Positions 6,546 through 58,301 of a stretch of 64,000 bases of DNA are shown piece by piece (position 1 is the stretch's first letter; every line of letters starts with the position of its first letter). Under the pieces are notes generated by a model. The model had not been told where the DNA came from and made no database searches. It saw only the letters and a list, made by a program, of their open reading frames with translations. Source of the stretch: Sediminibacterium sp. (lineage in GTDB: Bacteria > Bacteroidota > Bacteroidia > Chitinophagales > Chitinophagaceae); NCBI RefSeq assembly GCF_019264485.1, contig NZ_JAHVAA010000004.1, positions 62,001 to 126,000 on the forward strand, given 5' to 3'. A program made the translations under genes and the position numbers.

Positions 6546-6720
6546 GTTACAAAGCTACCACATGGTTTTTAAGTGTCAGTTTTCTTCAAGTCAATTAACC
6601 AAGTTCATACATATTTTAACCAAGAAGCTGGTTTCATAAAACGCGAAAGTCTTAAACAGTAAATTCATCTTCAGTACCGGAATGAGCTCATCTGACATTC
6701 ACTTTCAAAACAAGCCAACC

Positions 6721-8115: not shown

Positions 8116-8121
8116 TCAATC

Positions 8122-8213
8122 CTCTGCGAAATTCTCCGTGCCCTCATCTTCTCTGCGGTAAATTTACTCGAATGTTCACCGCAGAGAAAGAAGTTAACAG
8201 AGGTTTCGCAGAG
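8122..8213. repeat. CGCAGAG-type inverted repeat between convergent genes
   Basis: Arms 8122-8159 and 8177-8213 pair through CTCTGCGAAA with TTTCGCAGAG and TTCTCTGCGGT with ACCGCAGAGAA. It exactly fills the space between two convergent stop codons (8115 and 8218), so it may serve as a two-way terminator. The words resemble the widespread CGCAGAG repeats seen in many environmental bacteria (from memory). Confidence 0.75.
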
Positions 8214-8217
8214 TCGT

Positions 8218-9096
8218 TTACAGGATATCATTTGCTGTTATTACTTTTTGGATTGCTGCTTCTGTATCGTTGAATGGTCCGGAAGCGGCAATTTTTATAG
8301 CGGCCATGGCGGCGCCAAATGCGCCTGCATAAGCAATGTCTGCTTCTTTCAAACGTTGATACAGGTAGCCTGCCATATAAGTATCGCCACAGCCTGTTGC
8401 ATCTTTTGTAATGGTTGGTTTGTAGGCTGGTATTTTATACAACTTTTTTCCATCATAGATCAATGATCCTTTACTGCCTGATGTAATGACTACTTCTTTT
8501 ACACCCCAGTCGAATAATCTTTTTGCAGCCGTTTCCATCTTTGTATCACCCGTTAATGTCTCTGCCTCTGTTTCGCTGGCTTTAAGGATGGATATATAGG
8601 GCAGTGCTTTTTGTTTGTCGTTCCAGTCTGTGGGTATTACTGATTCGTTTTTCACTTCCCGCAAATACCCCTGTACATCCAATGATACTGTTGCATTTTT
8701 TGCAAGGTGTTGAATCAGGTCTATTGAGATATCGTTTGCCAGTAGCGGACCAAGATGAATGTATTTCGACCGAACATTCTGGAGTTCTTGTATCTGAAAA
8801 GGATCTGCTTTATGTAATACTTTTTGTATCCTGTTATCACTTTTATCAGGGTAGATATTCTCAAAATAAACAGTATGTGTACTGGCCAAAACAGTTGTTT
8901 CAATGCCTGCATTTTTCAGTTCATCCACAAATACATCATCTTCTTTTGCCAGTGCAGTTATTAAATGATAATGGACAGGCAATGATTTAACAGCATGCGA
9001 AAAATAAAATGAAGTTCCACCGGCCATATGTACGGTATGGTCGGGTGTTACAATTTTATCATGTGTGAGATGGCCTATGCAACAGAGATCGTACAT
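8218..9096 (-). CDS. PfkB-family carbohydrate kinase
   Basis: Sugar or nucleoside kinase of the ribokinase fold, 292 residues, cytoplasmic. The N-terminal substrate region holds MAGGTSFYFSHAV, a GG motif as in PfkB enzymes. The C-terminal signature ATGCGDTYMAGYLYQRL contains the catalytic GD and the anion hole, with KDATGCGD giving the expected context. VVITSGSKGSLIYDGKKL precedes it as in other members. The substrate cannot be told; ribose, adenosine or inositol-type kinases are all plausible. It is monocistronic, facing convergently into the DUF6055-like gene. Confidence 0.9.
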   Translation of the reverse strand: MYDLCCIGHLTHDKIVTPDHTVHMAGGTSFYFSHAVKSLPVHYHLITALAKEDDVFVDELKNAGIETTVLASTHTVYFENIYPDKSDNRIQKVLHKADPFQIQELQNVRSKYIHLGPLLANDISIDLIQHLAKNATVSLDVQGYLREVKNESVIPTDWNDKQKALPYISILKASETEAETLTGDTKMETAAKRLFDWGVKEVVITSGSKGSLIYDGKKLYKIPAYKPTITKDATGCGDTYMAGYLYQRLKEADIAYAGAFGAAMAAIKIAASGPFNDTEAAIQKVITANDIL

Positions 9097-9167
9097 AAAG
9101 TTGAAATACTTCGATCAACAAGATACTAAGTAGCCTGTAAATGGAGAACTCTTACACGTTCTGACAA

Positions 9168-9623
9168 TTAACGCGCCATCTCAAAAACATATGCCCTGAT
9201 ACGCAATAGTATAGCATGTATTTTTTTTACCATCTCCTCCCCTGTTGCTGTAAACTTAATAAGAGCAATGCGGTCATCCTCTGGAGTATTAAAAAAAATA
9301 TACTTATTGGTGGTTATACTGCCCACTGCTTCCGGAACAAATTCAACCCCTGCATCATTATCTCTTATTCTTCCTCTTTTCAACTTAAAAAGATTAAACC
9401 TGAAACCCGATTGATCTCTATCCAGCAGTGCTGTATTACCATTCAGCGAAACCGATAGCTTGTATTGAATACGACCATCCGGACTTGTTTTTAGCAAATG
9501 GTTTACGCTATCTACCATTTGCTGTAAATATTTATCCGGCTGTTCCTGCGCATTTGCAGAATGGGTTGTTGTTATAAAAAACAACATGAACAGAAAACTG
9601 ATAAGGGCTCCTGTGAATTTCAT
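9168..9623 (-). CDS. Secreted protein of unknown function
   Basis: About 151 residues. The start at MKFTGALISFLFMLFF gives a clean signal peptide ending at SANAQ; a longer frame start at 9680 would place 19 non-signal residues in front. The mature part mixes alpha and beta (YLQQMVDSVNHLLKTS, NLFKLKRGRIRDND, DRIALIKFTATGEEMVKKI). I do not recognise the family. It lies between the PfkB gene and the end of the polysaccharide locus, with more than 70 bp on each side, so it is probably a single-gene unit. Confidence 0.6.
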   Translation of the reverse strand: MKFTGALISFLFMLFFITTTHSANAQEQPDKYLQQMVDSVNHLLKTSPDGRIQYKLSVSLNGNTALLDRDQSGFRFNLFKLKRGRIRDNDAGVEFVPEAVGSITTNKYIFFNTPEDDRIALIKFTATGEEMVKKIHAILLRIRAYVFEMAR

Positions 9624-9714
9624 ACATGTATACTTCTTGTACTGAATGTACGCATAATATATTATTTGCGGACCCCGCATTCCTTAACGGATAGTAAAAA
9701 CAAAACTGCTTTAA

Positions 9715-9736
9715 CAATTTTCGTAACAGAAAATTG
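9715..9736 (-). terminator. Possible terminator after the polysaccharide locus
   Basis: Perfect 8-bp A/T-rich stem CAATTTTC/GAAAATTG with a six-base loop, 50 bp downstream of the last GH43 gene. The T-run on the minus strand is poor (TTAAAG follows), so this is a weak call. On the plus strand a run of A follows. Confidence 0.35.
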
Positions 9737-9787
9737 AAAAAATAGTTAGTGTCTTATTATTTCACCTATTACCTGATCGTATTGTAG

Positions 9788-10900
9788 TTAGTATTTTATT
9801 ATTTGCTCAGTCCATGTTGGTCCCTTTATATAAAATCTTCCATCTTTATAATACACCGGTTCAAAACCCATTTGCGGTGTTTTCTCCCAGGGTAAAAATG
9901 TCTGGCTGTATGGGTATGGCCTTTTTTCATACATAAAATAGTGACAGGAGCTCCAGAGTTGTCCATCCGGACCAATAAATAATGCATTATGACCTGTTTC
10001 CTGATAGGGATCTTCGGTATCCTGAAATTGAAGATGTGCATAGCCTCCACCTTTTGCCAGTTCGGGGCGATATCCCTTTTTGCGTGTGCCGAATATGGGT
10101 TCTCGTGATACAAGTTCCCAGGGTCCCAATGGCGATTTAGATTTTAGTAATCCTACTTCATAGCCTCTTGTCCAGGTTGAGAAGAACATAAAATAAGTGC
10201 CCTCTTTTTTAATCACAAAAGGTCCTTCTATTCCTCCGACCATCCATTCAGGATAGCCGGGTTGTTTTTTATCCAGAAATTTTTCAATCGGGGTTGTCAG
10301 CTTGCCTGATTTCAAATCAATCTTTGCCTGAAATAATCCATTGCCGCTGCAATAGAGATAGGTTTGTCCGTCTTCATCCTCAAACAAAGTGGCATCGTTA
10401 TTATACTGCGGAGTAAGCGGTCCATTCACCAGTTTATATGGACCTGTTACCTGATCAGATGAAAATAACCAAACACTATGTGTCTTCATTCCTTTAGGAT
10501 CTTCTGCTGTTACTTTCCCACTGTTAACAATGAGCCAGTATTTATTTTGAATGAAATGTATTTCAGGTGCCCAGAACCGTCCGTTATAAGGGCAGTCTGG
10601 CGGTAATGTAGCAGCATCGATCAGAAAGGAATGTTGTTTCCAGTTAATGAGATCTTCAGAGACCAATAAGCGGACACCGGGATTTGGCCCCGTCCATACA
10701 GGTTCCGATGTTCCTACACAGTACCATTTATTGTTTGCCTTGATAATAAAATGATCGCGCATTGAAATAGCTGAGTCGCGCGTAATGGGGTTGGTGTACC
10801 TGAATTCACGCCCGGGTACTGCTGCTGTCTGTGCAAATGCTTCAATATTCAACAGCATTATTGTTACCAAAACAAACTGCAACATGGTTTTCTTTTTCAT
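9788..10900 (-). CDS. Secreted glycoside hydrolase family 43 protein
   Basis: Probable alpha-L-arabinofuranosidase or beta-xylosidase of the five-bladed propeller GH43 fold, 370 residues. The start at MKKKTMLQFVLV gives a signal peptide ending at EAFAQ; an ATG six bases upstream (10906) is equally possible. Candidate catalytic positions are the Asp in SMRDHFIIK, the Asp in NNDATLFEDEDGQTYLY and the Glu in GGIEGPFVIKKEGTYFMF. It is the last gene of the polysaccharide operon, 13-19 bp after the previous GH43. The N-terminal TNPITRDSAIS is less canonical than in its neighbours, so the subfamily is unclear. Confidence 0.85.
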   Translation of the reverse strand: MKKKTMLQFVLVTIMLLNIEAFAQTAAVPGREFRYTNPITRDSAISMRDHFIIKANNKWYCVGTSEPVWTGPNPGVRLLVSEDLINWKQHSFLIDAATLPPDCPYNGRFWAPEIHFIQNKYWLIVNSGKVTAEDPKGMKTHSVWLFSSDQVTGPYKLVNGPLTPQYNNDATLFEDEDGQTYLYCSGNGLFQAKIDLKSGKLTTPIEKFLDKKQPGYPEWMVGGIEGPFVIKKEGTYFMFFSTWTRGYEVGLLKSKSPLGPWELVSREPIFGTRKKGYRPELAKGGGYAHLQFQDTEDPYQETGHNALFIGPDGQLWSSCHYFMYEKRPYPYSQTFLPWEKTPQMGFEPVYYKDGRFYIKGPTWTEQIIKY

Positions 10901-10919
10901 AAACATTACTGATTTTATT

Positions 10920-12299
10920 TTATTCAAACCGAATCCAGTCAATTTCAAGTGCCTTACCTTCTTTGAGTACCATGAAAAGGTTTTGAACACCACTTGTTTT
11001 TTTAATATCGTCTGACCCGACAATCATCCACTGGTTTGTTTTGCGGATGATTACTGTGCTGAGTAAAGGCCCTGTTGTGCTACCCGTTCTTATTTCAATG
11101 GTACCATCCTGTTCTGCCAGCATTTTGAATATCACTTTTTTAATGGGTTGGCTACCAAAATCAACGGTATTGTACTGCACCCATGCACCCGGTTCTCTGA
11201 ATTGGGTCTTCCATCCTTTAAATGTATCTGCAGTATCCAGAAATGCTATTGAAGCCCGCTCGTCAATTTTACTATACCTGTCAATCTGAATTTCAGTTCT
11301 TGCATTTGTTACACCTGCTCCTCTTAAAGTAGGTATTACTTTCTGAATAGTACCATCAGCATTAAAAGATAAACTATCTAACCTTACTGATCTGGCTTTA
11401 TCAAATTTGGGTGAGTAATCGTTGTGGTGATAAAAAAGGTACCACTGTTTTTTATACTGAATAATCGAATGATGATTGGTCCAGCAGCCTGTGGGTGATT
11501 CATCCATGATAACACCTGTAACTTTAAAAGGTCCCATCGGGTTATCGCCAATCGCATATTCCAGCCGCTCTGTTTTATTTTCTACATGTGGATAGGTTAA
11601 ATAGTAAATACCATTTCTTTCAAATACAAAGGGCCCTTCTTTCAATCCTTTTGTTGGCAAATTGGGAATGGTTACTACTTCTGATGCCAGCTCTTTCATA
11701 TTGTCTTTCAGTTTTGCCACATAAATATTTCCCTGCGACCAGTAGAGGTATGCCTGTCCATCTTTGTCAATAAATATATTCGGATCTATTCCCTTTACCC
11801 CTTTTATGGGTTCAGGCTCCGGAATAAATGGCCCTGCAGGATTGTCCGATACCGCCACACCAATACCAAAACTTCTGCCATACAGCGTTGTATCTTTAGG
11901 GAGTGTGGGGAAATAGAAATAATATTTTCCATTACGTTCAATACAATCGGGTGCCCACATACTATAACCTGTTGGATTGGCCCATGGTACTTTAGTCTGG
12001 CTCACAATCATTCCATGATCGGTCCAGTCAGTAAGATTGGCTGAAGAAAAAACATGATAATCTTCCATGCAAAACCAGCCAACCCTTCCTTTACCGGGTT
12101 GTGCAAGAATATCATGTGAGGGATATACATATACCCGGTCGCCAAAAACCCTTGCAGTAGGATCGGCTGTAAACTGATTACGTATAAAAGGATTTTGTGA
12201 AAAAGCATGTTTAGACAAAACTGTAACCAAAAAAATCAACAGCAATACACCTGGGTGTTTCACAGCTATTATTTTATGTAAATTTTTCATTTCGGTCAT
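10920..12299 (-). CDS. GH43 glycoside hydrolase with C-terminal CBM6-like domain
   Basis: Secreted GH43 enzyme of 459 residues. A hydrophobic signal (LLLIFLVTVLSKHAFSQ) follows a basic start. Catalytic candidates are Asp in NQFTADPTARVF, Asp in KGIDPNIFIDKDGQAYLYW and Glu in LKEGPFVFERNGIYYLTYP. After about residue 325 a beta-sandwich with GAWVQYNTVDFG, KVIFKMLAEQDGTIEIR and ALEIDWIRFE matches the CBM6 family that binds xylan or arabinan ends. The start overlaps the previous gene's stop by four bases (ATGA), implying translational coupling; an in-frame ATG at 12290 is an alternative. Likely an arabinofuranosidase or xylosidase. Confidence 0.9.
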   Translation of the reverse strand: MTEMKNLHKIIAVKHPGVLLLIFLVTVLSKHAFSQNPFIRNQFTADPTARVFGDRVYVYPSHDILAQPGKGRVGWFCMEDYHVFSSANLTDWTDHGMIVSQTKVPWANPTGYSMWAPDCIERNGKYYFYFPTLPKDTTLYGRSFGIGVAVSDNPAGPFIPEPEPIKGVKGIDPNIFIDKDGQAYLYWSQGNIYVAKLKDNMKELASEVVTIPNLPTKGLKEGPFVFERNGIYYLTYPHVENKTERLEYAIGDNPMGPFKVTGVIMDESPTGCWTNHHSIIQYKKQWYLFYHHNDYSPKFDKARSVRLDSLSFNADGTIQKVIPTLRGAGVTNARTEIQIDRYSKIDERASIAFLDTADTFKGWKTQFREPGAWVQYNTVDFGSQPIKKVIFKMLAEQDGTIEIRTGSTTGPLLSTVIIRKTNQWMIVGSDDIKKTSGVQNLFMVLKEGKALEIDWIRFE

Positions 12300-13897
12300 T
12301 TGTTTATTGATGAAATAGTATCGGTAATATGAAAGAAATCGAAATCAGCAGTACCACCTGTAATTTTTGTGGCATAGTTGAACAGAGCAAAACGATACCC
12401 TATAAACTGTGGAATGGTATAAGCCATTTTAAGTTGTGTTCCGATAGCCGTCCATGTTTTACCATCCAGACTATAGAAGAAATGGGCAATGTCTTTTTTG
12501 TTAGTGAAATTGCACTCCGCTTTCAGATATACTGTTGACTGCGTTAATGGTATTCTTACTTCTTCTACCGGTTTACCTGAACTGCCATTGATCATTACAA
12601 GTTCTTTCCGGTTGCCGTTTACCTGTACACCCAATTGTCCGAAGTTTTTTTGTAACAAACCAAGTCCTGCAAAATCACCCTCTTTCATATTACTTATGTC
12701 AAGCGATGTTGCACCTGTACAAACCGGACCAATGGTTCTTTGAGTAAGTGAATTACGGGCGAGTAAAAAGCTCGTATCTATTCTCCCTGTTTTCAAACGC
12801 AGATAACCCTTTCTTTCTGTTACAGACCATAAATTATTATCGGGATTATGATTCCACTGCCATGCTAATGGCAAAGCTGGTTCTCCTTTTTTTTGTGTAA
12901 ACTCATCTGATGCCACTATACCCGGTATCAGTCCCTTACCTGCAGGCAGATCGAGCGTTGCCGGCACTTTACCTTCTACTCCTAACACCGGCCATCCGTC
13001 TTTCCATTCAACGGGTACGAGGTATGGAATACGTCCTACAGCACCATAATCGCGAAAAAGATATGAATACCATCTTCCATCAGGCATATCAATTAAACCT
13101 CCCTGTGCCACACCCAAATCCTGTAATGCCAGCTTGCCTTCCCATGGTCCGGTTAATTTATCTGCTCTATGTATTACCACTGTTCGCATTCCACCACGTG
13201 GCCAGGTGATATTAAACAGATAATATTTACCCTTTACTTTGAACAGTTGCGAGCCTTCACCCAAACCGCTGTTACCAACTGACTGACTTGGTGCTGTTAC
13301 ATCTTCAATAACTACCTGGTTAATCCCTCCCTCTTTTATGCCAGTAAGATCATCTTTTAATTCAACCAATATGAGTTTACGGTTGCTATAAAGCATATAC
13401 ACTTTCCCATCATCATCAAAAAACAATGAATGATCGTGCAGACTGGGTTTGAATGACCATGATTTCCATGGACCTTTTTCAATATTTTTTGTGGAATAGA
13501 TATGAGTTCTACCGGTTGTTTGTGCAAATGTGGTTACATAAAATATTCCTTTATGGTAGCGGATACTACTTGCCCATGAACCTCTTCCATAAGTGCTTTT
13601 ACCATTGGTAAGATTCAACTCATCTATACTGGCCAGCGTATCATAGGCATAACCAATCATTTTCCAGTTTACAAGGTCTGTTGATTTCATGATGGGTACC
13701 CCCGGACTCATGTGCATGGTGGTACTACTCATGTAGTATGCATTCCCAACTCTGATCATAGAAGCATCAGGAACATCGGCAAATATGATTGGGTTTATTG
13801 CTTTGTCAGACTGTGCTGATAGTTGATTACTACAATTCAACACGATCAGTAACTGTATAAACAAAACTTTAGGTATTATCGTATATTTTACCGGCAT
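12296..13897 (-). CDS. GH43 beta-xylosidase-like protein with C-terminal lectin-like domain
   Basis: Protein of about 533 residues. The start at MPVKYTIIPKVLFIQ precedes a signal peptide ending at NQLSAQ; a longer frame beginning at 13972 overlaps the upstream gene and was not used. Catalytic candidates are Asp in IIFADVPDASMIRVG, Asp in LHDHSLFFDDDGKVY and Glu in GLGEGSQLFKVKGKYYLF. The C-terminal 200 residues (LPLAWQWNHNPDNNLWSV onward) form the beta-sandwich found after the propeller in GH43 beta-xylosidase/arabinofuranosidase enzymes such as the subfamily 12 group. Tightly packed between two other GH43 genes. Confidence 0.9.
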   Translation of the reverse strand: MPVKYTIIPKVLFIQLLIVLNCSNQLSAQSDKAINPIIFADVPDASMIRVGNAYYMSSTTMHMSPGVPIMKSTDLVNWKMIGYAYDTLASIDELNLTNGKSTYGRGSWASSIRYHKGIFYVTTFAQTTGRTHIYSTKNIEKGPWKSWSFKPSLHDHSLFFDDDGKVYMLYSNRKLILVELKDDLTGIKEGGINQVVIEDVTAPSQSVGNSGLGEGSQLFKVKGKYYLFNITWPRGGMRTVVIHRADKLTGPWEGKLALQDLGVAQGGLIDMPDGRWYSYLFRDYGAVGRIPYLVPVEWKDGWPVLGVEGKVPATLDLPAGKGLIPGIVASDEFTQKKGEPALPLAWQWNHNPDNNLWSVTERKGYLRLKTGRIDTSFLLARNSLTQRTIGPVCTGATSLDISNMKEGDFAGLGLLQKNFGQLGVQVNGNRKELVMINGSSGKPVEEVRIPLTQSTVYLKAECNFTNKKDIAHFFYSLDGKTWTAIGTQLKMAYTIPQFIGYRFALFNYATKITGGTADFDFFHITDTISSINK

Positions 13898-47687: not shown

Positions 47688-48944
47688 TCACCAAAGTGCA
47701 AAGAATGGAACCGCCCAGAGATTCTTACCAAAGGGAACCGCTTCTTTACCTGAATACAGTACAATACCACCGGTAAAATCCTTACCCGTTAATTCCTGAA
47801 ATGCTTTGATGCCTTTAAAATCATCTGCATTTACTGTTTCAGATTTTTTTACTTCGATGGCAAATACGGAGCCGTCCGGTTTTTCGATGATAAAATCAAC
47901 TTCTTTGTTATCGCTTGTTCTGAAATGATATAGTTCAGCTTTTATATCGCTGTTGCTTAATTGTTTCTTTAATTCTGTTGCCACAAAATTTTCTACCAGA
48001 TGTCCAAACAATTCAGGTTTTGTTTTGGAAATATCTTCAAGGTTATAATCCAGTAAGTGACAGATCATAGATGTATCTAGAAAATAGCCTTTGGCCGATT
48101 TTACCAATCGCTTACCAACATTACGGAACCAGGGATTTACATCGAAAGTTAAAAACATGAGTTTTAAAATATTCCGATACGATTTTCCTGTTACCGAGTT
48201 CAATCCCACTTCACGTGCAATATCGGAGTCATTCATCAAACCACCTGCACGGGTTGCAAGTACCCGCAGGAGATGTGGCAGCAATGAACTTTTTTCTAAT
48301 TCAGCTATTTGCTTCACATCACGCTGCAGAATGGTGGTGATGTAACCATCGAACCAGGTTCTCCTGTTTTCTTCTGTGGCAGATGCTATTTCAGGAAATG
48401 TGGCGCGCTTCATGGCATCAAGCAGGGTTAATCCTCTGTCTGTAATATGCTGAAAATCCAGTTGCATGATTTTTTCCAACTGACCCGCATTATTATTGGT
48501 GGCTTCTGCTGCTGAGAATGGATATAAGGTTAAGATAGCCATTCTACCCACCAGCGGGTCTGACAAATTGGGCAATGCCAATATATTCGCCGATCCGGTA
48601 AGCAGGTATTTGCCATTGGCTGTTTCCTGCTGTTCAAACCGCGCGGCATCTACCACTATTTTTAGTGTGCGAAACAATTCGGGCACCAATTGCACTTCAT
48701 CTATAATTAATGGCAGATCGTAGCTTGTTAAAAATGCTTCCGGTTCAGAAGATGCCGCGGCCATTTGTGTGGGTCTGTCGAAAGTTACATACTGGGCCGG
48801 TTTACCATGCGTTCCTATTTCTGCAGCCATTGTTTTAACAAGCGTACTCTTTCCGGTTTGTCTTGCTCCATTGAGAAAAACAATCGGATGATTTTTGAGG
48901 GTTTGTTTTATCCTGGTATTGATATGTCGGTGAAAGAAACTCAT
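47688..48944 (-). CDS. AAA-type ATPase with DUF4143 nuclease-like C-terminal domain
   Basis: Protein of 418 residues. Walker A is GARQTGKST near residue 28 and Walker B is LPLIIDEVQLVPEL near 78; sensor YLLTGSANILALPNLSDPLVGRM follows. After a winged-helix stretch comes DUF4143, a restriction-endonuclease-like fold (LFGHLVENFVATELKKQ, NKEVDFIIEKPDGSVFAIEVKKSE: the D...E-x-K pattern). Such proteins are widespread, often in variable regions, and poorly understood. It lies 367 bp downstream of the restriction-like operon and may share its island. Confidence 0.9.
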   Translation of the reverse strand: MSFFHRHINTRIKQTLKNHPIVFLNGARQTGKSTLVKTMAAEIGTHGKPAQYVTFDRPTQMAAASSEPEAFLTSYDLPLIIDEVQLVPELFRTLKIVVDAARFEQQETANGKYLLTGSANILALPNLSDPLVGRMAILTLYPFSAAEATNNNAGQLEKIMQLDFQHITDRGLTLLDAMKRATFPEIASATEENRRTWFDGYITTILQRDVKQIAELEKSSLLPHLLRVLATRAGGLMNDSDIAREVGLNSVTGKSYRNILKLMFLTFDVNPWFRNVGKRLVKSAKGYFLDTSMICHLLDYNLEDISKTKPELFGHLVENFVATELKKQLSNSDIKAELYHFRTSDNKEVDFIIEKPDGSVFAIEVKKSETVNADDFKGIKAFQELTGKDFTGGIVLYSGKEAVPFGKNLWAVPFFALW

Positions 48945-49311: not shown

Positions 49312-50046
49312 TCAGGCTATGCCAGGCGTTTTCCATCTAGAAAACTCAGAGGGCAACAAAGAAACAATTTCATTTCCCGACATTGAATTTAAATCATACG
49401 TCATCTGATACTGTCTGATAATTCTGACCATCCTTCGCGCAGAGCCTCCTCCTTTTCCTGCAGCACCTCTTTTAAGACTTGATGTAGTTTCATCCCAATA
49501 CATAATATTTGCAGCATCAAGTATTCCTTTGTTTAGGGCAATTTCCTGGTAAGCCCCGAACTGCTCTGTTATTTCTCCACGTTTCTGAAATGTACCGATC
49601 AGAAATATTCTGGAAGATTCTCCTAATTCTGAATACAACCTGCTTGGATATGCGAGCAGGTGGCGATAGTATTTTGTATAATTCTTAGGGTCCTTGAGAA
49701 TATAAAAAGCGGCTTCATTAATTTTTCTCTTCCCATTAGCATCAACAGGACAGATATTATCAAAATAAAAAGCGGACAGCCATGTCCATAACCCTTTATC
49801 AAAATATAGATGTTTGTGGTTCTTGAGGTTTAACTGGTTTACCAGATAAGGAACAAGCTGATTCTTGTTTTTAAAATCAACCTTTTCAATATTAATAATT
49901 GGCTCTAGCAAATCTGATAACTGAGGGTCGAATAACAAAGTTTCAGGTATGACATTAAGGTTGTTATTGCGTATTTCTCCTACAATTCTTTCAAACTCAC
50001 TAAGTCCGTCGTCGTTAAATATTCTTATAGCAGTTATATTACTCAT
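49312..50046 (-). CDS. Restriction-operon accessory protein, DUF6339-like
   Basis: Soluble protein of 244 residues, last gene of the operon; its ATG overlaps the previous stop by four bases. The mid-part KGLWTWLSAFYFDNICPVDANGKRKI and YYRHLLAYPSRLYSELGESSRIFL gives a mostly helical pattern that resembles DUF6339 (from memory). The C-terminal third is basic (KRGAAGKGGGSARRMVRIIRQYQM), so it could bind DNA or RNA. No catalytic motif recognised. Co-conservation with the ATPases would be the best clue to its role. Confidence 0.7.
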   Translation of the reverse strand: MSNITAIRIFNDDGLSEFERIVGEIRNNNLNVIPETLLFDPQLSDLLEPIINIEKVDFKNKNQLVPYLVNQLNLKNHKHLYFDKGLWTWLSAFYFDNICPVDANGKRKINEAAFYILKDPKNYTKYYRHLLAYPSRLYSELGESSRIFLIGTFQKRGEITEQFGAYQEIALNKGILDAANIMYWDETTSSLKRGAAGKGGGSARRMVRIIRQYQMTYDLNSMSGNEIVSLLPSEFSRWKTPGIA

Positions 50047-50807
50047 TGCGCAGTGAATTTTTCAAATAGCTGTAATTTTTTACAATATTCATTCACACAA
50101 TCATCAACCCATACTTCCTGTTCAGGTGTAAGTTCATCATTATCACTCTTGGTATCTGGCTGGTTTTTAATACCCAGCACTGCTATCGTAAATTTTAACC
50201 AATCGGCTATCCATGTGCCTTCTTCTGCATCAAAATCATCCTGCTCCAATAATAATTTTATCAAAACAGATCTGAATGCTGCGGGATAAACAAGGCTGAT
50301 AAATTTGACATCGTTTCTCGCCATTTCAAGAATATCAGGAATGTTTTTGTTGATCTCAAGCACCGGTCTTCCTTCATCACCGGAATCGAATGTTAATTTC
50401 CAGAACTGGTTTTTTAAATCAACCGGGTTAACTGGCAACAATGAGATTCTGTCGTTTGGGCTACCATCTGTACTTACGACTATTCCTTTGGCACTACCCA
50501 GCAGCAGACCTACCTTTCCAGCTTCGTCAACAATCGCTATATCAAAATAGGCCAACTCTGTTTCCGGGAGTTCATTCAACCTTGTGCTTTCCGGCTCTTT
50601 AAAATGAGCAATTGTTCCGAATGCAAACCTCTGGTAAACTCCTTTATAATTTGCTTCTATATAAATCTTTGCTTGCGGTGGCATTTCGAGCCCCTCCAGG
50701 TTAATTTTTGCACGGAAATACTTCCCATCTCTGTCCTTGAACAAAGAAATGTCAATTCTGTTTCTGTCGATTTTCAGACGGTTCGTATAATTAAAGCGAC
50801 GGATCAT
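50043..50807 (-). CDS. Restriction-operon accessory protein of unknown family
   Basis: Soluble protein of 254 residues. The first half is beta-rich (IDISLFKDRDGKYFRAKINLEGLEM, KIYIEANYKGVYQRFAFGTI, ELAYFDIAIVDEAGKVGLLLGSAKG), the second half helical (SLVYPAAFRSVLIKLLLEQDDFDAEEGTWIADWLKF...). The start codon directly abuts the stop of the second GHKL ATPase (TAAATG), so it is translationally linked and may be its partner. I do not recognise the family. Confidence 0.7.
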   Translation of the reverse strand: MIRRFNYTNRLKIDRNRIDISLFKDRDGKYFRAKINLEGLEMPPQAKIYIEANYKGVYQRFAFGTIAHFKEPESTRLNELPETELAYFDIAIVDEAGKVGLLLGSAKGIVVSTDGSPNDRISLLPVNPVDLKNQFWKLTFDSGDEGRPVLEINKNIPDILEMARNDVKFISLVYPAAFRSVLIKLLLEQDDFDAEEGTWIADWLKFTIAVLGIKNQPDTKSDNDELTPEQEVWVDDCVNEYCKKLQLFEKFTAQ

Positions 50808-52772
50808 TTATTGCAGTTTTAAAAATAAATCCCGTTTTTCATCAAAACCTGTCAGTTGTATTTCAAACTGCTCTTTATTTTCTATCTCAAACTCCAGTTC
50901 GTTTTTTTCTTTCTTCGTAAAATAGACGCCTGTAGACTCTATTATAATAGGCAATTTTGACAGATCGAAATCCAGTTGCTGGTAACTTTTAATGGGATTC
51001 CCTCTTGGTACATCATATCCCAATTTCAATCGCATACTCTCCGGCATTTCTTCAGCAGCTGGATTGCTTGTAATTTTTAATCCTGACAAAATTTTCTCAA
51101 CCAGTACAGGTCTTTTTTTTCCTTGTACAATTGGAATATCAGGCTCCTCTGTATCATCTTCTCCTTTACTGTCATGACCGGTTTTATCTTTTGGTTTTTT
51201 CTCCTCCGGTTCCTGAGTCTCTACAGGAATAGAGAAAAAATCTATCAACAGGTCTTTCTGAATTCCATCCAGGGGTCGTTGCAACTGATCATATAATTTT
51301 TTCAGTGTTGCTTTTACAAATGCCAATGCCTCCTTTCCATCTACATATTTTCCTTTAAAATTTCTTGAATCCGGTTGCCACTCGGTATGTGCCGGATTTT
51401 CAGAATCACCCAGCATACGGGCCAGATCAATATCCTGAATTACAACCACTCCCCTTACCAGTCCCTTGTCGAGAGATGTTATCCCGGAAATGGTAATACC
51501 GTCTCTTACAAATAAATTTTCGGGTTTAACCAGCGTTGTATCTTTTTCAAGAAATGCCTGATACCAGCATGTTTTTGCTTCCCCGTTCACTGGTTGATAT
51601 TTAAGCGGAATGGAAAAAGCCACTCTTTCATTTTGTTCAAACCTGTCTCTTAATAAGTTCAACCCTTCTTGATCTCCAAACATTGCTTTTGAATTCCATC
51701 TTGGTTTTGCTTTAAGATCAAGTTCTTTCAGTCTAAAAAAATCTTCTTCCTTTAAGCCAAAGGACCATTGTGCAAATTCAAAAAGCCTGATGAGGCTTTC
51801 TTTTGTTTTAAGCTTCTTATCCCCTTCGTTCAGTAATTGCAGAAAGTTTATTTGTTCAACCGCACGCCGAATAGAATCCTTCTTTAGTTCAATACAATGA
51901 TCTTCTTCTGTAATTTCCACTTCCAACCTGCCTTCAAGAATAGGATAAAAGTATTGTTCAATTACTGCGTAAGCCAGATGGTTAACCGTTATCTCATCGG
52001 TTACAAACGGAACGATCAGGGAAAAACCCGGCTGATCTTTTCTCTGCAGGTGAAAAAGACTCTCAAAACAGTTCAGTTCGCTCTCTGTTTCTACAGGTTC
52101 AGCAAAGCAATCGGTACTACCTTCGTATTTTCCAAACATTCCATAAGGCTTGTATCCGCACTCTTCTTTTTTTTCATCCTCTCTGTTGTGAATACGCAGA
52201 ATACTTTGGCCCATCAGCATTTTCCGTCGGTCGCTTTTCCTGACAGTTATTCCCCAGAATGAATTGATATTGGAAGAAGCAGGAAAAACAGTTTTTCCAA
52301 GGCCCCATCTACCCAGTTTATCGTCTATTTTACCTGAACGGCCAACATTACGCCAGAAATAATAAAAATTATGGGGCTGACCATCTTTAATGTTTTCTAC
52401 ATAATGCTCTTTAGGATTACCCTCCAGCCCTTTTGTATTGAAATCCTCAAATACAAGGAATTTCATCGGAGTTTCAAAATCTGGTAAAGCTGATATTCCA
52501 GACGCTTTTGCTTTTAAGTGTGGTGTCAGTGTTTCTAAGAAAGGAAGATAAGCCTGCGGCTGTAAAGCATATTTATTTCCTGAGAGAAATATCCTCACTC
52601 TTACCGTTTCAAAATGATCTGCCCGGTTTCTTTCATCTAGTGCATTCTGAATACCTTCCCGCACCACCGCAGTCGATATGTTATCAATATCTCTGGTGGT
52701 AAAAAACTCGCCTTGGATGGGGTCTACATCCATATCATCGCGGGAGTTGGGTTTAAAGCGCCATTCAATCAT
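50808..52772 (-). CDS. GHKL-fold ATPase (second of two) of the restriction-like operon
   Basis: Protein of 654 residues. The N-terminal part carries GHKL/Bergerat motifs: N-box STAVVREGIQNALDER, a D-x-x-T-x-G-like FEDFNTKGLEG, and the glycine-lid GRWGLGKTVFPASSNINSFWG. The middle contains long mixed segments, and a charged linker (KKPKDKTGHDSKGEDDTEEPDI) leads to a C-terminal beta-rich domain of about 100 residues that starts after the KRPVLVEKIL segment. It is unlike the other GHKL protein beside it apart from the ATPase motifs. Related ATPases occur in restriction and MORC-like systems. It follows that gene by 3 bp. Confidence 0.8.
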   Translation of the reverse strand: MIEWRFKPNSRDDMDVDPIQGEFFTTRDIDNISTAVVREGIQNALDERNRADHFETVRVRIFLSGNKYALQPQAYLPFLETLTPHLKAKASGISALPDFETPMKFLVFEDFNTKGLEGNPKEHYVENIKDGQPHNFYYFWRNVGRSGKIDDKLGRWGLGKTVFPASSNINSFWGITVRKSDRRKMLMGQSILRIHNREDEKKEECGYKPYGMFGKYEGSTDCFAEPVETESELNCFESLFHLQRKDQPGFSLIVPFVTDEITVNHLAYAVIEQYFYPILEGRLEVEITEEDHCIELKKDSIRRAVEQINFLQLLNEGDKKLKTKESLIRLFEFAQWSFGLKEEDFFRLKELDLKAKPRWNSKAMFGDQEGLNLLRDRFEQNERVAFSIPLKYQPVNGEAKTCWYQAFLEKDTTLVKPENLFVRDGITISGITSLDKGLVRGVVVIQDIDLARMLGDSENPAHTEWQPDSRNFKGKYVDGKEALAFVKATLKKLYDQLQRPLDGIQKDLLIDFFSIPVETQEPEEKKPKDKTGHDSKGEDDTEEPDIPIVQGKKRPVLVEKILSGLKITSNPAAEEMPESMRLKLGYDVPRGNPIKSYQQLDFDLSKLPIIIESTGVYFTKKEKNELEFEIENKEQFEIQLTGFDEKRDLFLKLQ

Positions 52773-52775
52773 CTT

Positions 52776-54629
52776 TTATATAACTGATTTATTATAGAGT
52801 TCGATAAATTCTTTGTGGTTTTGTTTTGATTGCTCCAATAATTCTGCATATGTTTTAACAAAAACCTCTCCTGATTTTATATAAGTCGCCTCTTTAGATT
52901 TAAAATATGGGTCATTCGATTTTTTTCCTCCAATCACATAACAAATAACTCTTGAAAATCCTGACTGTGACGAAAAATGGTTCTCTAAAAAAACTTTATA
53001 CCGATTTGCTTGTTCCAGTGCACTTTCATCTACACTATATAAACTCCTTTTTATTTCAATTACATACAAAATTTCTCCTAACGCATTACTACATAAAAAA
53101 TCTATACGTCTATTAGCTTCAGTAAGTTTCTCTTCCGGAAAGTTTACTTTTAATAAATTGGAATAGTGTACCTCATCTTTAAATTCTAAAATTCTAGGGT
53201 CTAATAGCCAAGAAAATTGCTTTAAAAAATTATGTAAAGTCGGAACTTCTTTAGTATCTGTTTTAATATACTGTTCGAATTGTTTTATTACTTCAACTCT
53301 AGATAAAGCGATACCTCTATATTGTTTAGCTTCTACTATCTTCCATTCTTCCATTAATTTCAGAAGAGTCGGAATCTCTTCAGAATTAGAAATATCTGCA
53401 ATCCTAGAAGCATAATCTTTAAAAATTTTATTATCAAATTTATCAACAACATTTCCAATTATCTGACTTGACTCATCAACGTCTATGTTCTGGTTTTCAA
53501 GAATAGGAGTAATGATTTTATTACTTAATTCTTTTTCATATGTTGGCAAAGAGTTTTGCCATTGATCAACATCAATTCCTTTTTTAATTTTTATTTGATC
53601 CTTTTTTAAAGTGCCGCGCAATAATCTCCACTCGCTTCCAATTTTTTTTATTATATGTTGAAGATAATTCTGTAATTCCTTTGTTTTGTCATTTTCCCAA
53701 ATAAGTGAATGCCTATCAGTAGATATAACATCTTCACTGAATTCATCAATGAAATCGATTTCAAGATATCCAGTCACATAAGTATGAAAATTGTCATTAT
53801 CTCTTAATCCATAAAAACTTGCATTATTTACAATCTTTCCACGTGAAGTCAAGTAGACACCACTCATTTCTGTGTCTTTAATGGGGGTTTCTGTTGTAAA
53901 TACTGATCCAGAAAACCGTTTCCAGTATTCATAATGTTCACCATATTTACTATCTGGAAAATTCCATTTAAACTGAACATTAAGCCCATTAAACTTAAGC
54001 TCATTGACTACATCTACTCGTTGACCTTCAGTTGACGAGAGCGTAACTGACATTTTATCAAATATCAAAAATTTCTTTGAAAGACTTATTGCAATATTAT
54101 CAAGATCAAAGCCTGACTTTCTTCTGATTTGTTTTAGTAAAATTTTTGTTCCGCGCTCATTTGTTTCAGCAATAGTATCCTTTGGAATTATTAGCTCTGG
54201 TGAATAGTTACCACTACTTTTTTTGATATCATCAAGATTCATTCTAAAATGATTTTTAAAACCATTCTTAATAGAAATTACTTCTATAACATCACAAACA
54301 CCAAAGACTGAAAGTTTACCAAGTCCTTTCTTCCCAATTACTTTTCTTCCGCTTGCGCTAGTCTCTTTATTTTCATGAATACGCCTATTTCTTCCTATCA
54401 CTAAATATTTTTCGTTTAATTCTGAAAAAGTCATTCCATCACCATAATCAACATACTCAATTTCTTTTCGGGCATCTCTATCTGCAAAGATTATCTCTAC
54501 TTTATCTGAATCAGCATCCCAAGAATTAGAAATCAACTCAGATAAAACACTTGGCAATTTTGAGTACAATGAAATACCTAAGTGTTCAATTGTATTGGGA
54601 TCAAATTTTAAAGAAAGTTTATCACTCAT
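52776..54629 (-). CDS. MutL/MORC-like GHKL ATPase fused to a PD-(D/E)XK nuclease-like domain
   Basis: Protein of 617 residues. N-box VLSELISNSWDADSDKVEI, DYGDGM (G1) and VIGKKGLGKLSVFGVCD (G2) define a GHKL ATPase at residues 1-200 in the MutL/MORC style. The C-terminal 130 residues hold RRIDFLCSNALGEILYVIEIKRSLYSVDESALEQANRYKVFLE, a PD-(D/E)XK-type core (D...E-I-K) that is probably the DNA-cleaving part. The DNA is visibly more A/T-rich than its neighbours, hinting at separate transfer. The start overlaps the methyltransferase stop by four bases (ATGA). Inference: ATP-gated restriction enzyme paired with the methyltransferase. Confidence 0.82.
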   Translation of the reverse strand: MSDKLSLKFDPNTIEHLGISLYSKLPSVLSELISNSWDADSDKVEIIFADRDARKEIEYVDYGDGMTFSELNEKYLVIGRNRRIHENKETSASGRKVIGKKGLGKLSVFGVCDVIEVISIKNGFKNHFRMNLDDIKKSSGNYSPELIIPKDTIAETNERGTKILLKQIRRKSGFDLDNIAISLSKKFLIFDKMSVTLSSTEGQRVDVVNELKFNGLNVQFKWNFPDSKYGEHYEYWKRFSGSVFTTETPIKDTEMSGVYLTSRGKIVNNASFYGLRDNDNFHTYVTGYLEIDFIDEFSEDVISTDRHSLIWENDKTKELQNYLQHIIKKIGSEWRLLRGTLKKDQIKIKKGIDVDQWQNSLPTYEKELSNKIITPILENQNIDVDESSQIIGNVVDKFDNKIFKDYASRIADISNSEEIPTLLKLMEEWKIVEAKQYRGIALSRVEVIKQFEQYIKTDTKEVPTLHNFLKQFSWLLDPRILEFKDEVHYSNLLKVNFPEEKLTEANRRIDFLCSNALGEILYVIEIKRSLYSVDESALEQANRYKVFLENHFSSQSGFSRVICYVIGGKKSNDPYFKSKEATYIKSGEVFVKTYAELLEQSKQNHKEFIELYNKSVI

Positions 54630-55879
54630 AAGAGATTTTTTAGTTTTGTAGCAATTTTTTCTCCCATGAGGACTGGCACAGCGTTTCCAATTTGCTTGAA
54701 TGCAGCGGTTCTGTTTTTCCCTTCCTTCACTCCTTCAAAATAAAAATCATCAGGAAATGATTGCAACCGGGCTGCTTCTCTTACTGTTAAGGATCTATTT
54801 TGTTTTATATCGGGATGTATATAGTAATGTCCGTCTTTGGCAATATGCGCCACCACTGTTTGCGAATAAGCGGCTTTATCATTTACCACCTTAAACCGAT
54901 CAAAAAAAGAATGTTCATTTTTATGTGTACGCAATCGTTTAGGCAGAGATGTATAAGAAAGTCTTTCGCCTGCCTGCATTTTCTCTACTGCTATACGGTA
55001 TATTTCTTTATCCTGCTCAGTATTCGGCCTGGCCACATGCTGGGTTAATATATCAATCCCATTACGGATACCGCTTTCATTCAGATAGGCTGTTGTTGGT
55101 TTTGCGTAGGTAACATATTTATCTGTTCCTTCTCCAGCCTGTAGCATTGGTAAATCACTCAACAATTCTTTTACCGTGTGATTTACCTTACTACGTATAG
55201 CTTCCAGATCAGGCAATGTAATCTGTTTATGGTTCTGCCATCCGATGATAATTACCCGTTTCCTGTTTTGCAATACACCAAAGTTGTTTGCTTCTACTGT
55301 AAACAGCTTCATGTGATAACCTTTACTGTCAAACAGTTTTTCCATATTCCGGAGGTAAATACCATTACCGGCAGATTTAAGACCAAGCACATTTTCAAAT
55401 ACAAAAATCTTTGGCTCATATTTTTCCAGATATTTTGCATATTGTACGTACAGGTAATTACGATGATCGCCTTTCATACCATGCCGGCTTCTGGCTCTTC
55501 CCACCAGAGAATATGCCTGGCAGGGTGGGCCACCGATTATCAGGTCTACTTTTCGACCGTTACGTAATTTTTCGATGGTTTTGTGTATTTCAGGGTTGTT
55601 TTCACCGCCTATCGGCAGGTTAATTACGCTCTCCAGCAATTCAGCAGGTACATTGCTGTATAATTCTGTCCTGTTTATTTTTCCTTCCAGGTATTTCTTG
55701 TACTCATTAAACTTTCCATTTGCTTTCAGATAATGATACGCAACCCTTGTTTTTAAGGTATAACAGGCCGCCTCGTCCATCTCTACGTGAGCAATAGGCT
55801 CAAATCCTGCCCGGATAAATCCTTCTGATAAACCTCCTGCACCTGCAAAGAGGTCGATAAAAGTCAACTTCTTTGTCAT
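54626..55879 (-). CDS. C5-cytosine DNA methyltransferase
   Basis: Modification enzyme of 417 residues. Conserved motifs in order: I FIDLFAGAGGLSEGF, IV GGPPCQAYSLVGRARS (catalytic Cys), VI FVFENVLGLKSAG, VIII NRKRVIIIGW, IX and X SLTVREAARLQSFPDDF and FKQIGNAVPVLMGEKIA. The variable region between VIII and IX is the target-recognition domain; its specificity cannot be read. It overlaps the XRE gene's stop (TAATG) and the nuclease-ATPase gene, so the three are translated in step. It should protect self DNA from the operon's nuclease. Confidence 0.96.
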   Translation of the reverse strand: MTKKLTFIDLFAGAGGLSEGFIRAGFEPIAHVEMDEAACYTLKTRVAYHYLKANGKFNEYKKYLEGKINRTELYSNVPAELLESVINLPIGGENNPEIHKTIEKLRNGRKVDLIIGGPPCQAYSLVGRARSRHGMKGDHRNYLYVQYAKYLEKYEPKIFVFENVLGLKSAGNGIYLRNMEKLFDSKGYHMKLFTVEANNFGVLQNRKRVIIIGWQNHKQITLPDLEAIRSKVNHTVKELLSDLPMLQAGEGTDKYVTYAKPTTAYLNESGIRNGIDILTQHVARPNTEQDKEIYRIAVEKMQAGERLSYTSLPKRLRTHKNEHSFFDRFKVVNDKAAYSQTVVAHIAKDGHYYIHPDIKQNRSLTVREAARLQSFPDDFYFEGVKEGKNRTAAFKQIGNAVPVLMGEKIATKLKNLL

Positions 55880-56097
55880 TATTTAAATTCTTTACTATCA
55901 AAAAAATCTTTCGAAGAAATCTCTAATGCTTTTAATATCTTATCCAATGTTGAAAGCGATATATTTTTTCTTCCGTTCTCAATATGTGTCAGGTATGTTC
56001 TTTCCATATCAGCCTCATAAGAAAATTTCTCCTGTGAAAGACTTTTCTTTTTTCTGAGCTGGGTAATTCTTTTACCAACTTTCGTTTTTAAATCCAT
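55879..56097 (-). CDS. XRE-family helix-turn-helix regulator (controller-protein type)
   Basis: Protein of 72 residues, all helix-turn-helix: GKRITQLRKKKSLSQEKFSYEADMERTYLTHIENGRKNISLSTLDKILKAL. Size and position, immediately before the methyltransferase and overlapping it by one base, match C proteins that time restriction-modification expression. A candidate promoter with repeats lies 37 bp upstream. Confidence 0.9.
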   Translation of the reverse strand: MDLKTKVGKRITQLRKKKSLSQEKFSYEADMERTYLTHIENGRKNISLSTLDKILKALEISSKDFFDSKEFK

Positions 56098-56133
56098 GCT
56101 TAGGGTAAACAGGTTTGTAATACTGGGGGAGGG

Positions 56134-56153
56134 TATGCAAACGTACTATGCAA
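56134..56153 (-). promoter_or_regulatory. Candidate promoter/operator of the XRE gene
   Basis: On the minus strand TTGCATA is repeated with a six-base spacer GTACGT, and the second copy overlaps an exact TAnnTTTG box (TACGTTTG, 56138-56145). The repeats are placed where the XRE protein could repress or activate its own promoter. No separate -33 element was seen. Confidence 0.5.
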
Positions 56154-56275
56154 TTTATATATGTGTCTTTTAAAACACCGTATATTATAGGACACATTCC
56201 TAACATCTTTTCAAGATGCCGTATTTACACTTAAAATATAAGCACTGCTTCTTACCCGATGGTATCGAAGAACGG

Positions 56276-56692
56276 CTATTGAGAGAATTTTTTCAACAAA
56301 GAGCGCAATGTTTTATCCAATCTGGGTGGCTTTAATGCACACTCCCAGATTGTAATAATTTTCCACTGGTTTTTCTTCAAAGCTGCTATTGCCTTTGCAT
56401 CGTTTGCAGTATTTATGGCAATTTTTTCTACCCACCACTCCGTCCTTGTTTTAGGAATAACAAAGTAGCGGCAGTTTTTATGACCATGCCAAAAGCATCC
56501 ATGAACAAAAACAACTGTTTTATACTTAGGCAGCACTATATCAGGTTTTCCCGGAAGGGTTTTATCATGCAGTTTGTATCTTAATCCCTGTGCATGCAAA
56601 AAGCGCCGAACCAGCATTTCGGGTTTTGTGTCTTTCCCTTTAATGCGGCTCATATTGTAGCTGCGTTGCTCTTTTGTATGCACGTCTGCCAT
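56276..56692 (-). CDS. vsr: Very-short-patch-repair (Vsr) endonuclease
   Basis: Mismatch endonuclease of 138 residues that nicks at T:G mismatches formed when methylated cytosine deaminates. Conserved features: NMSRIKGKDTKPEMLVRRFLHAQGLRYKLH at the start, LPGKPDIVLPKYKTVVFVHGCFWHGHKNC (catalytic Asp, zinc site), and FVIPKTRTEWWVEKI (aromatic intercalating segment). It is the usual partner of C5-cytosine methyltransferases. It lies 178 bp before the XRE gene on the same strand and may have its own promoter. Confidence 0.95.
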   Translation of the reverse strand: MADVHTKEQRSYNMSRIKGKDTKPEMLVRRFLHAQGLRYKLHDKTLPGKPDIVLPKYKTVVFVHGCFWHGHKNCRYFVIPKTRTEWWVEKIAINTANDAKAIAALKKNQWKIITIWECALKPPRLDKTLRSLLKKFSQ

Positions 56693-58226: not shown

Positions 58227-58227
58227 G

Positions 58228-58301
58228 TGGGCCCACCAGGGCATGATCCTGGGACCCCCTGATTATGAGTCAGGTGCTCTAACCAACTGAGCTATAGGCC
58301 C
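58228..58301 (-). tRNA. tRNA with CAU anticodon (elongator Met or lysidine-type Ile)
   Basis: 74 bases without CCA. Acceptor GGGCCTA pairs with TGGGCCC, then A73. The D-arm has AGCTCAGTTGGTTAGAGC, the anticodon stem CCTGA/TCAGG encloses CTCATAA (anticodon CAT), and the T-stem is CCAGG/CCTGG. The anticodon stem lacks the GGG/CCC pairs of initiators and base 1 pairs with 72, so it is not the initiator. Met versus Ile depends on lysidine modification and cannot be read. The T-loop is ATCATGC instead of the usual TTC-R-A, with bases 54 and 58 swapped. Confidence 0.9.

Follow-up and report, generated by a model that had tools for sequence, protein, structure and literature searches.

A likely BbrUII/HgiDII-type restriction-modification operon joined to a recurrent three-gene GHKL ATPase module in Sediminibacterium

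Background

GHKL ATPases have been described in bacterial restriction-modification (RM) operons beside C5 cytosine methyltransferases and Vsr by Iyer, Abhiman and Aravind in 2008 (PMC2292703). The excerpts of that paper also report RM operons with two GHKL proteins, a MORC plus a paraMORC1, and a paraMORC3 with a C-terminal nuclease of the RE fold. Two further arrangements are closest to the locus described here. The first is the BbrUII/HgiDII kind of RM system, in which a C5 methyltransferase adjoins a restriction enzyme made of a GHKL domain plus a nuclease; according to the excerpt of PMC5867850, M.HgiDII is the 5-methylcytosine (m5C) methyltransferase for GTCGAC. The second is PDC-M33, a candidate system of the PADLOC collection with three genes, A (a GHKL ATPase), B, and C (DUF6339, PF19866). 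We analysed a 64,000-nucleotide stretch of Sediminibacterium sp. (contig NZ_JAHVAA010000004.1, positions 62,001 to 126,000), hereafter the window, and describe in it a seven-gene operon at window positions 49312-56692, on the minus strand, that combines features of both.

The upstream half of the operon resembles the BbrUII/HgiDII systems in that a C5 methyltransferase adjoins a GHKL-plus-nuclease enzyme (the GHKL-nuclease), which matches the NCBIfam family NF050001 (BbrUII/HgiDII) over nearly its full length (residues 7-612 of 617, 3.1e-91). Unlike those systems, it scores 306.9 bits against an equivalog cut-off of 550, and three extra genes follow downstream. These three genes, which we call the trio, encode a second GHKL ATPase (GHKL2) and two smaller proteins (U254 and P244). 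The trio resembles PDC-M33 in its order A-B-C, in protein sizes, in the match of GHKL2 to the PDC-M33A model (1.8e-16, in two stretches) and in its RM neighbourhood. It differs in that U254 and P244 are missed by the B and C models, in that a first gene of about 75 residues found at other loci is absent from the window, and in that the module is here joined to an RM operon, with a preceding gene or genes that vary among relatives. Among the MORC and paraMORC proteins, paraMORC3 resembles the GHKL-nuclease in having a C-terminal RE-fold nuclease; unlike the operons of those families, no helicase is present among the window proteins scanned, and neither U254 nor P244 can be recognised in the excerpts of PMC2292703.

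We therefore read the operon, with a probability of about 0.9, as a BbrUII/HgiDII-type II m5C RM system that has a controller and a Vsr to itself and is joined to a portable module, GHKL2-U254-P244, which forms a divergent branch of candidate PDC-M33. A preliminary description, made from the letters of the window, had called the arrangement unnameable. That no longer holds for the second ATPase, which matches PDC-M33A, or for the presence of two GHKL proteins in an RM operon, which has precedents; what remains is that the open-licence literature in PMC yielded no description of PDC-M33, DUF6339 or the trio, and that neither the recurrence of the trio across RM types nor the exchange of the genes in front of it was found in those papers.

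Results and discussion

Seven genes in one operon

The preliminary description had proposed seven genes in one direction, forming a single operon with tight junctions. Reading all open reading frames and junctions from the sequence bore this out: all seven frames lie on the minus strand at the coordinates first assigned to them. The first gene encodes the very-short-patch repair endonuclease Vsr (56276-56692, 138 residues; PF03852, 6.7e-37; TIGR00632, 143.6 bits, above its cut-off of 97.85) and lies 178 bp upstream of the second; the remaining six are joined by overlaps or by gaps of at most 3 bases. A C-protein-like controller of the XRE family (55879-56097, 72 residues; HTH_3, 8.9e-12; PADLOC Control_protein, 4e-20) shares one base (TAATG) with the gene of the C5 cytosine DNA methyltransferase (54626-55879, 417 residues; PF00145, DNA_methylase, 8.6e-62; also the PADLOC MTase_II and DrmMII models). 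This in turn overlaps by 4 bases (ATGA) with the gene of the GHKL-nuclease (52776-54629). Three bases separate the latter from GHKL2 (50808-52772, 654 residues), which directly abuts U254 (50043-50807, 254 residues; TAAATG), and a second 4-base overlap (ATGA) leads into P244 (49312-50046, 244 residues). Long overlapping frames on one strand, with relatives in the same order elsewhere, make a chance arrangement untenable. A scan for promoter and terminator signals found them no richer in the operon than in shuffled sequence.

The restriction-modification half

Vsr, the controller, the C5 methyltransferase and the GHKL-nuclease together constitute a type II RM system. The GHKL-nuclease has, as first proposed, a nuclease fused to a MutL/MORC-like ATPase: the ATPase domain lies at residues 26-146 (HATPase_c_3, 2e-18), and C-terminal to it a PD-(D/E)xK-like core, D510...E525-x-K527, can be read from the sequence. 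A similarity to the nuclease family HSDR_N_2 covers residues 501-565 (0.0019; 18.7 bits, below the cut-off of 25). The statement in the preliminary description that no ordinary type II restriction enzyme is present has to be given up. On the evidence of the NF050001 match the protein belongs with restriction enzymes of a known family, the BbrUII/HgiDII kind, and PADLOC REase_II models match it as well; the reading as a novel fused nuclease was rejected on the same match. Because its score lies under the equivalog cut-off, no recognition site can be assigned. The phage protein family phrog_6203, of unknown function, also matches this protein (1.2e-108), so that phages or prophages are further carriers of HgiDII-like enzymes.

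Two other named systems were compared. The best PADLOC match of the window methyltransferase is DrmMII (8.7e-173), a likeness to DISARM in methyltransferase family, and membership of DISARM was rejected because none of its partners (the helicase drmA, the DUF1998 protein drmB, PLD) occurs among the ten window proteins scanned with Pfam. Against MzaB of the MZA system the GHKL-nuclease scores 23.4 bits (1.7e-05, residues 27-138), where the equivalog cut-off is 850.

The trio and its relatives

The two ATPases of the operon belong to different GHKL families, as had been supposed from the sequence. The best BLASTP comparison between them gives an E value of 0.096 with an alignment out of register, and we rejected the possibility that they are duplicates. 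None of the three trio proteins reaches the cut-off of a Pfam family, and none is matched by NCBIfam. In GHKL2 the ATPase motifs E39-N43-D46, D110/T113/G115 and G154-G157-G159-K160 are invariant in 11 aligned sequences, the window included. The structure model of U254 (mean predicted local distance difference test, pLDDT, 67.4) has an immunoglobulin/fibronectin type III (Ig/FN3)-like sandwich at residues 9-121, followed by helices; its best structural match by VIA-align has Z 9.0, a root-mean-square deviation of 2.5 and 98 residues aligned, and Foldseek gave no match at E<=0.001. Such a fold, as modelled, gives no function by itself. The model of P244 (pLDDT 69.5) is mainly helical and has no clear fold match in the PDB (best Foldseek E 2.3, best Z 3.1).

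P244 had been called DUF6339-like. It occupies the position that true DUF6339 genes have in PDC-M33 loci; by family models the name finds no support, with no Pfam family at E<=1 and no PADLOC match. Profile comparison with DUF6339 by hhalign (E 0.0022, probability 13%; E 0.023, 0.17 and 0.18 for other pairings) is only suggestive of a relation. For U254, which has no PADLOC match at E<=1, the comparison with M33B (E 0.18, probability 0.3%) does not demonstrate homology. Since the B and C models miss U254 and P244, we place the trio with PDC-M33, as a divergent branch, by gene A, gene order and sizes only.

Scanning genome contigs with GHKL2 identified five close relatives, L006-L010, whose best segments are 68-83% identical. 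U254 and then P244 follow GHKL2 in the same order in all five, and a C5 methyltransferase lies upstream in each, the L010 contig holding only the end of that gene. Recurrence of the last four genes of the operon together had been named as support for a discrete system. The trio does recur, intact in 5/5 relatives; the remaining gene, the GHKL-nuclease, is not conserved with it and is replaced in four of the five.

The two small genes might have been found scattered in the absence of the ATPases, which would have spoken against a discrete unit. In our samples this was not the case. A GHKL profile built from 11 sequences matched in 10 of 395 Bacteroidota genomes, and DUF6339 in 6/395, five above the cut-off and all five at places of GHKL matches. 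The P244 profile matched in 6 of 394 genomes of the family, five of them trios. The two exceptions are a below-cut-off DUF6339 match with three internal stops (G010), in a genome with no GHKL match, and a weak, chance-like P244 match with no GHKL adjoining.

Beyond these genomes, the trio also occurs on a Rhizobium plasmid, and loci of the PDC-M33 type occur in Bacillota, Actinomycetota and Deinococcota. Scans of viral contigs gave a single trio locus (L040, identical to L053) and those of phage records a single relative (L025). The latter, on a phage-labelled contig, runs M33A (4.4e-96), M33B (3.6e-48), M33C (1.1e-20), an HNH restriction enzyme and a C5 methyltransferase. The first gene of about 75 residues precedes the ATPase in 11 of the 26 loci compared below and in 0/32 control loci, by a model built from those same 11 loci; it is absent from the window and its five close relatives, where a cassette or restriction gene directly precedes GHKL2.

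Linkage to restriction-modification genes

We compared 26 trio loci (the window, L006-L010, L017, L019, L020, L022-L025 and L040-L052) with a control set of 32 loci of the Shedu domain (PF14082) drawn from the 27 genomes, among the 395 of Bacteroidota, in which it occurs. Repeats were merged (L018 with L007; L002 and L013 lie inside L006), the two copies in L022 were counted once, and L016/L021 (G726, E 8.5e-5, a chance match with no GHKL adjoining), a fragment in G062 (4.9e-4) and G010 were left out. Plasmid loci were taken from seven of 26 records, with Acetoanaerobium and Rhizobium added through other matches; the remaining L. salivarius, Lactococcus and Priestia records were taken as repeats, and Enterococcus, Halobaculum and six unlisted records were left out.

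A C5 methyltransferase lies within 6 kb of the ATPase in 20/26 trio loci versus 1/32 controls (Fisher p 2.2e-9), where 12 of the 26 loci seeded the methyltransferase model itself and the window was selected for its RM genes. Without the window the count is 19/25, and 13/15 for the Bacteroidota loci taken by themselves, the controls being Bacteroidota only and the trio loci not. Contig ends cut four trio and nine control loci shorter than the 12-kb window of comparison. Vsr occurs within 6 kb in 10/26 loci, as compared with 0/32 controls, and in L007-L009 and L041 further Vsr genes lie just beyond this limit.

Restriction enzymes could be identified in 14/26 loci; they comprise at least nine kinds, some of which were assigned from annotation alone. 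The enzyme is HgiDII-like in the window and L006; EcoRII in L010 and L049, and in L046 by the same PADLOC model; HpaII in L041; NgoFVII together with a FokI-like enzyme in L044; and FokI-like, just below cut-off, in L022. AlwI occurs in L048 (record annotation only) and in L051, with two methyltransferases; Sau3AI/MutH in L050 (record annotation only); and HNH in L025. L045 combines a type IIG enzyme with an N-6 methylase and an S subunit, and L052 has a type I system. With neighbours so different, the trio is hardly tied to a single nuclease or recognition site. Twelve loci had no identified restriction enzyme, the neighbouring frames having been scanned in part only and those of L024 not at all. 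Nine of these twelve (L007, L008, L009, L017, L019, L020, L024, L043 and L047) carry a C5 methyltransferase plus trio, L047 also a NOV_C-domain protein; the other three are L023, L040 and L042. The six loci without a C5 enzyme are L045, L051 and L052, a retron-like locus (L042), one at a contig end (L040) and one with no other RM gene noticed (L023).

Different cassettes on one backbone

Between the methyltransferase and the trio, the window and its five close relatives carry different genes. The slot holds the HgiDII-like enzyme in the window and L006, and EcoRII in L010. In L007 and L009 it is filled by a double-GHKL kinase (HATPase_c_3 plus HATPase_c, 719-753 residues) and a regulator-like protein of 356-380 residues, and in L008 by three proteins of 280, 259 and 816 residues, the last KaiC-like. 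The methyltransferase tree supports a clade (98.3/99) of the window, L006 and L009, whose enzymes are 79-82% identical, and yet L009 has the kinase/regulator pair in place of the nuclease. In the tree of the trio, the window pairs with L006 (100/95), and L007 pairs with L008 (100/99) yet the two differ in cassette. Between L007 and L009, GHKL2 is 80.9% identical, the methyltransferase 63.2%, the kinase 43.7% and the regulator 35.4%. The L010 exchange may include the methyltransferase, as this gene is visible there only in part.

Base composition points the same way. In the window the cassette has a G+C content of 0.300, lower than that of the methyltransferase (0.400) and of GHKL2 (0.390); the corresponding values in L006 are 0.317, 0.415 and 0.406. 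For L009 the two cassette genes have 0.336 and 0.321 and the two flanking genes 0.400 and 0.412. The contrast is smaller in L007 (0.317/0.289 versus 0.360/0.350) and L008 (0.330-0.346 versus 0.362/0.366). A high A+T content is common among restriction genes, and by itself composition is therefore weak evidence of exchange.

Pairs of similar kind have been described: Bellieny-Rabelo et al. (2021) reported two-component-like HEF_HK/Response_reg_2 pairs beside RM systems, and the excerpts of their paper (PMC8011034) make no mention of the trio. The kinase and regulator-like cassettes of L007 and L009 resemble those pairs in lying beside a C5 methyltransferase and Vsr; they differ in that neither Pfam family matched the cassette proteins scanned, three of the four, the L009 regulator having been left out. 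The regulator-like proteins, at L007 8925-9995 and L009 8852-9994, stand in the slot of the window's nuclease, and a PACD motif is conserved towards their C-terminal ends.

The backbone and the cassette may be under common control. The intergenic region upstream of the XRE gene (window 56098-56275, minus strand) contains a C-box-like inverted repeat of the GTGTCC...GGACAC type (18 nucleotides, 78% complementary), and repeats of the same type lie upstream of XRE at L007 5044-5192 and L009 5001-5211. These are the three loci of the window clade with an XRE match, and they contain one (window), two (L007) and three (L009) GTGTCC/GGACAC sites, against 0.02-0.05 expected. No such site was found before the methyltransferase in L006 or before Vsr in L008, neither of which has an XRE match. 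The repeats are likely to be the operator of the controller, and the arrangement suggests that backbone and cassette share a single controller. L007, L009 and L019 apparently have a second palindrome in common, of the GTGACT...AGTCAC type.

What the trio may do

Gene content, conservation, linkage to RM genes, differing cassettes on a conserved backbone and intact ATPase motifs can all be read directly from these loci. For the function of the trio we offer a tentative proposal, to which we give somewhat less than even odds: it would be a second arm of the RM system, an ATP-operated clamp complex acting on incoming DNA. GHKL2 would form an ATP-operated dimeric clamp, with U254 as its Ig-fold adaptor and P244 as a helical partner in the same complex. 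The complex would be licensed by whichever modification core it adjoins, and would bind, arrest or remodel the same unmodified incoming DNA on which the nuclease acts. The trio would thus be independent of any particular nuclease, and the true nuclease, here the HgiDII-like enzyme, would be an exchangeable first arm.

The trio is hardly a restriction nuclease itself. No nuclease domain was found in its proteins by Pfam, NCBIfam, PADLOC or PHROGs, and PDB folds gave no convincing nuclease match, which for models of pLDDT 67-69 is absence of evidence. Sequence searches of the PDB with the trio profiles returned either nothing or, in one case, five short matches (E 0.07-0.3). A role as the restriction nuclease was rejected on these grounds.

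The best-surviving alternative, which we consider unlikely, is that the trio is a self-sufficient phage defence, PDC-M33 proper, whose clustering with RM genes reflects shared defence islands and joint travel. PADLOC lists the models under a candidate-system name of their own, and the small first gene in 11/26 loci would fit an independent unit. So would L017, L019 and L020, where the trio runs convergently to the methyltransferase, and L042 and L023, which have no C5 methyltransferase in the 12-kb window. This alternative sits poorly with a C5 linkage far above that of Shedu, overall and for the Bacteroidota loci, and with the spacing in the six window-clade loci, where the trio starts -20 to +34 bases from the preceding gene.

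A somewhat less probable alternative is that the trio is a general helper of restriction enzymes, which would act as a MutL-like clamp and load, loop or hold DNA for better cutting or for masked sites. DNA looping between cleavage and recognition sites was proposed for MORC/paraMORC proteins in RM operons (PMC2292703, excerpts); in the window, L006 and L010 the coupling between the genes of the restriction enzyme and GHKL2 is close, and many nuclease folds are tolerated. Against it, L017, L019, L020 and L043 consist, as far as their neighbours were scanned, of methyltransferase and trio with no recognised restriction enzyme. Loci of that composition favour an action of the trio in its own right over help to a nuclease.

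Retron partners are usually toxins, and PrrC offers a model for guard behaviour. A guard of this kind, an abortive-infection effector silent while the RM system works and firing on its inhibition by a phage or on a build-up of DNA ends, would suit the many RM types, the retron-like neighbour in L042 and the antitoxin-like size and place of the small first gene (11/26 loci), but we consider it the least probable reading, as domain, fold and PDB searches found no toxin or nuclease domain in the three proteins and the small gene is absent from all six window-clade loci.

Several observations weigh against the reading of the operon as an RM system joined to a portable second arm with exchangeable cassettes. 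The trio also stands beside type I and other non-C5 systems (L045, L051, L052), in the retron-like locus L042 and in L023, and so it cannot simply read m5C. Restriction enzymes that seem to be missing may be unrecognised or unlinked, given the partial scan of neighbouring frames. The assignment to PDC-M33 depends on gene A, order and sizes, with the relation of P244 to DUF6339 weak and that of U254 to M33B not shown, and both structure models are of moderate confidence. As to exchange, the methyltransferases of L007 and L009 are only 63% identical, L009 joins the window and L006 only weakly in the trio tree (63.2/62), and the diverged kinase/regulator pairs of L007 and L009 suggest separate gains without proving them. 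The XRE gene of the window (G+C 0.288) is as AT-rich as the cassette.

Neighbouring genes and unusual loci

A protein with AAA_14 and DUF4143 domains is encoded 367 bp downstream of the operon (window 47688-48944, minus strand) and matches the PADLOC candidate PDC-S01 (7.5e-138); it is possibly a second defence gene beside the operon. A tRNA-Met gene lies 1.5 kb upstream (window 58227-58301, minus strand) and is a putative integration site. The upstream flanking gene, sought across the genus for an empty site, was present only in its own genome (1/13).

Four of the trio loci have unusual features. L022 (G094 contig 16) contains two diverged ATPase copies with two small genes each and, within 20 kb, a Z1-domain protein, two C5 methyltransferases and a FokI-like protein. 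The ATPase frame at L023 (G394, 8372-9947) is split into frames of 76 and 439 residues, perhaps a decayed or frameshifted copy. In L042 (G198, 6658-12332) a single run comprises an XRE gene, a retron-like reverse transcriptase, the gene of about 75 residues, the GHKL ATPase, B and a C-terminally extended DUF6339 protein. The reverse transcriptase matches the St85 model at 1.6e-43 and 149 bits, below the cut-off of 235, and the locus is possibly a retron with the trio as its partner. On an Acetoanaerobium plasmid (L052, 547-11714) the type I system, the trio and a gene for a DarT-like ADP-ribosyltransferase (2.4e-14) follow one another on the same strand.

Conclusions

The operon bears directly on the idea, put forward by Iyer et al. 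(2008), of DNA manipulation by MutL/MORC-like ATPases in RM systems. It is also tractable: a single gene cluster, with clear ATPase mutants and natural cassette-swap controls. Its importance lies in two features of the trio, which recurs next to about nine kinds of restriction enzyme and stays with a methyltransferase across loci whose nuclease slots hold different genes. A broader idea follows, which we hold as speculation a shade less probable than the second-arm proposal itself. RM systems in at least five bacterial phyla may have an unrecognised third limb, the GHKL-clamp trio, compatible with nearly all modification enzymes. Methyltransferase and trio may, in Bacteroidota, form a constant chassis for pluggable effectors (a GHKL-nuclease, a kinase/regulator pair, a set of ATPases), such that change selected by phages would fall on the effector while self-marking and clamp persist. 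If this is true, the best-known form of bacterial defence, usually treated as two activities, modification and cleavage, has a further component that had escaped notice.

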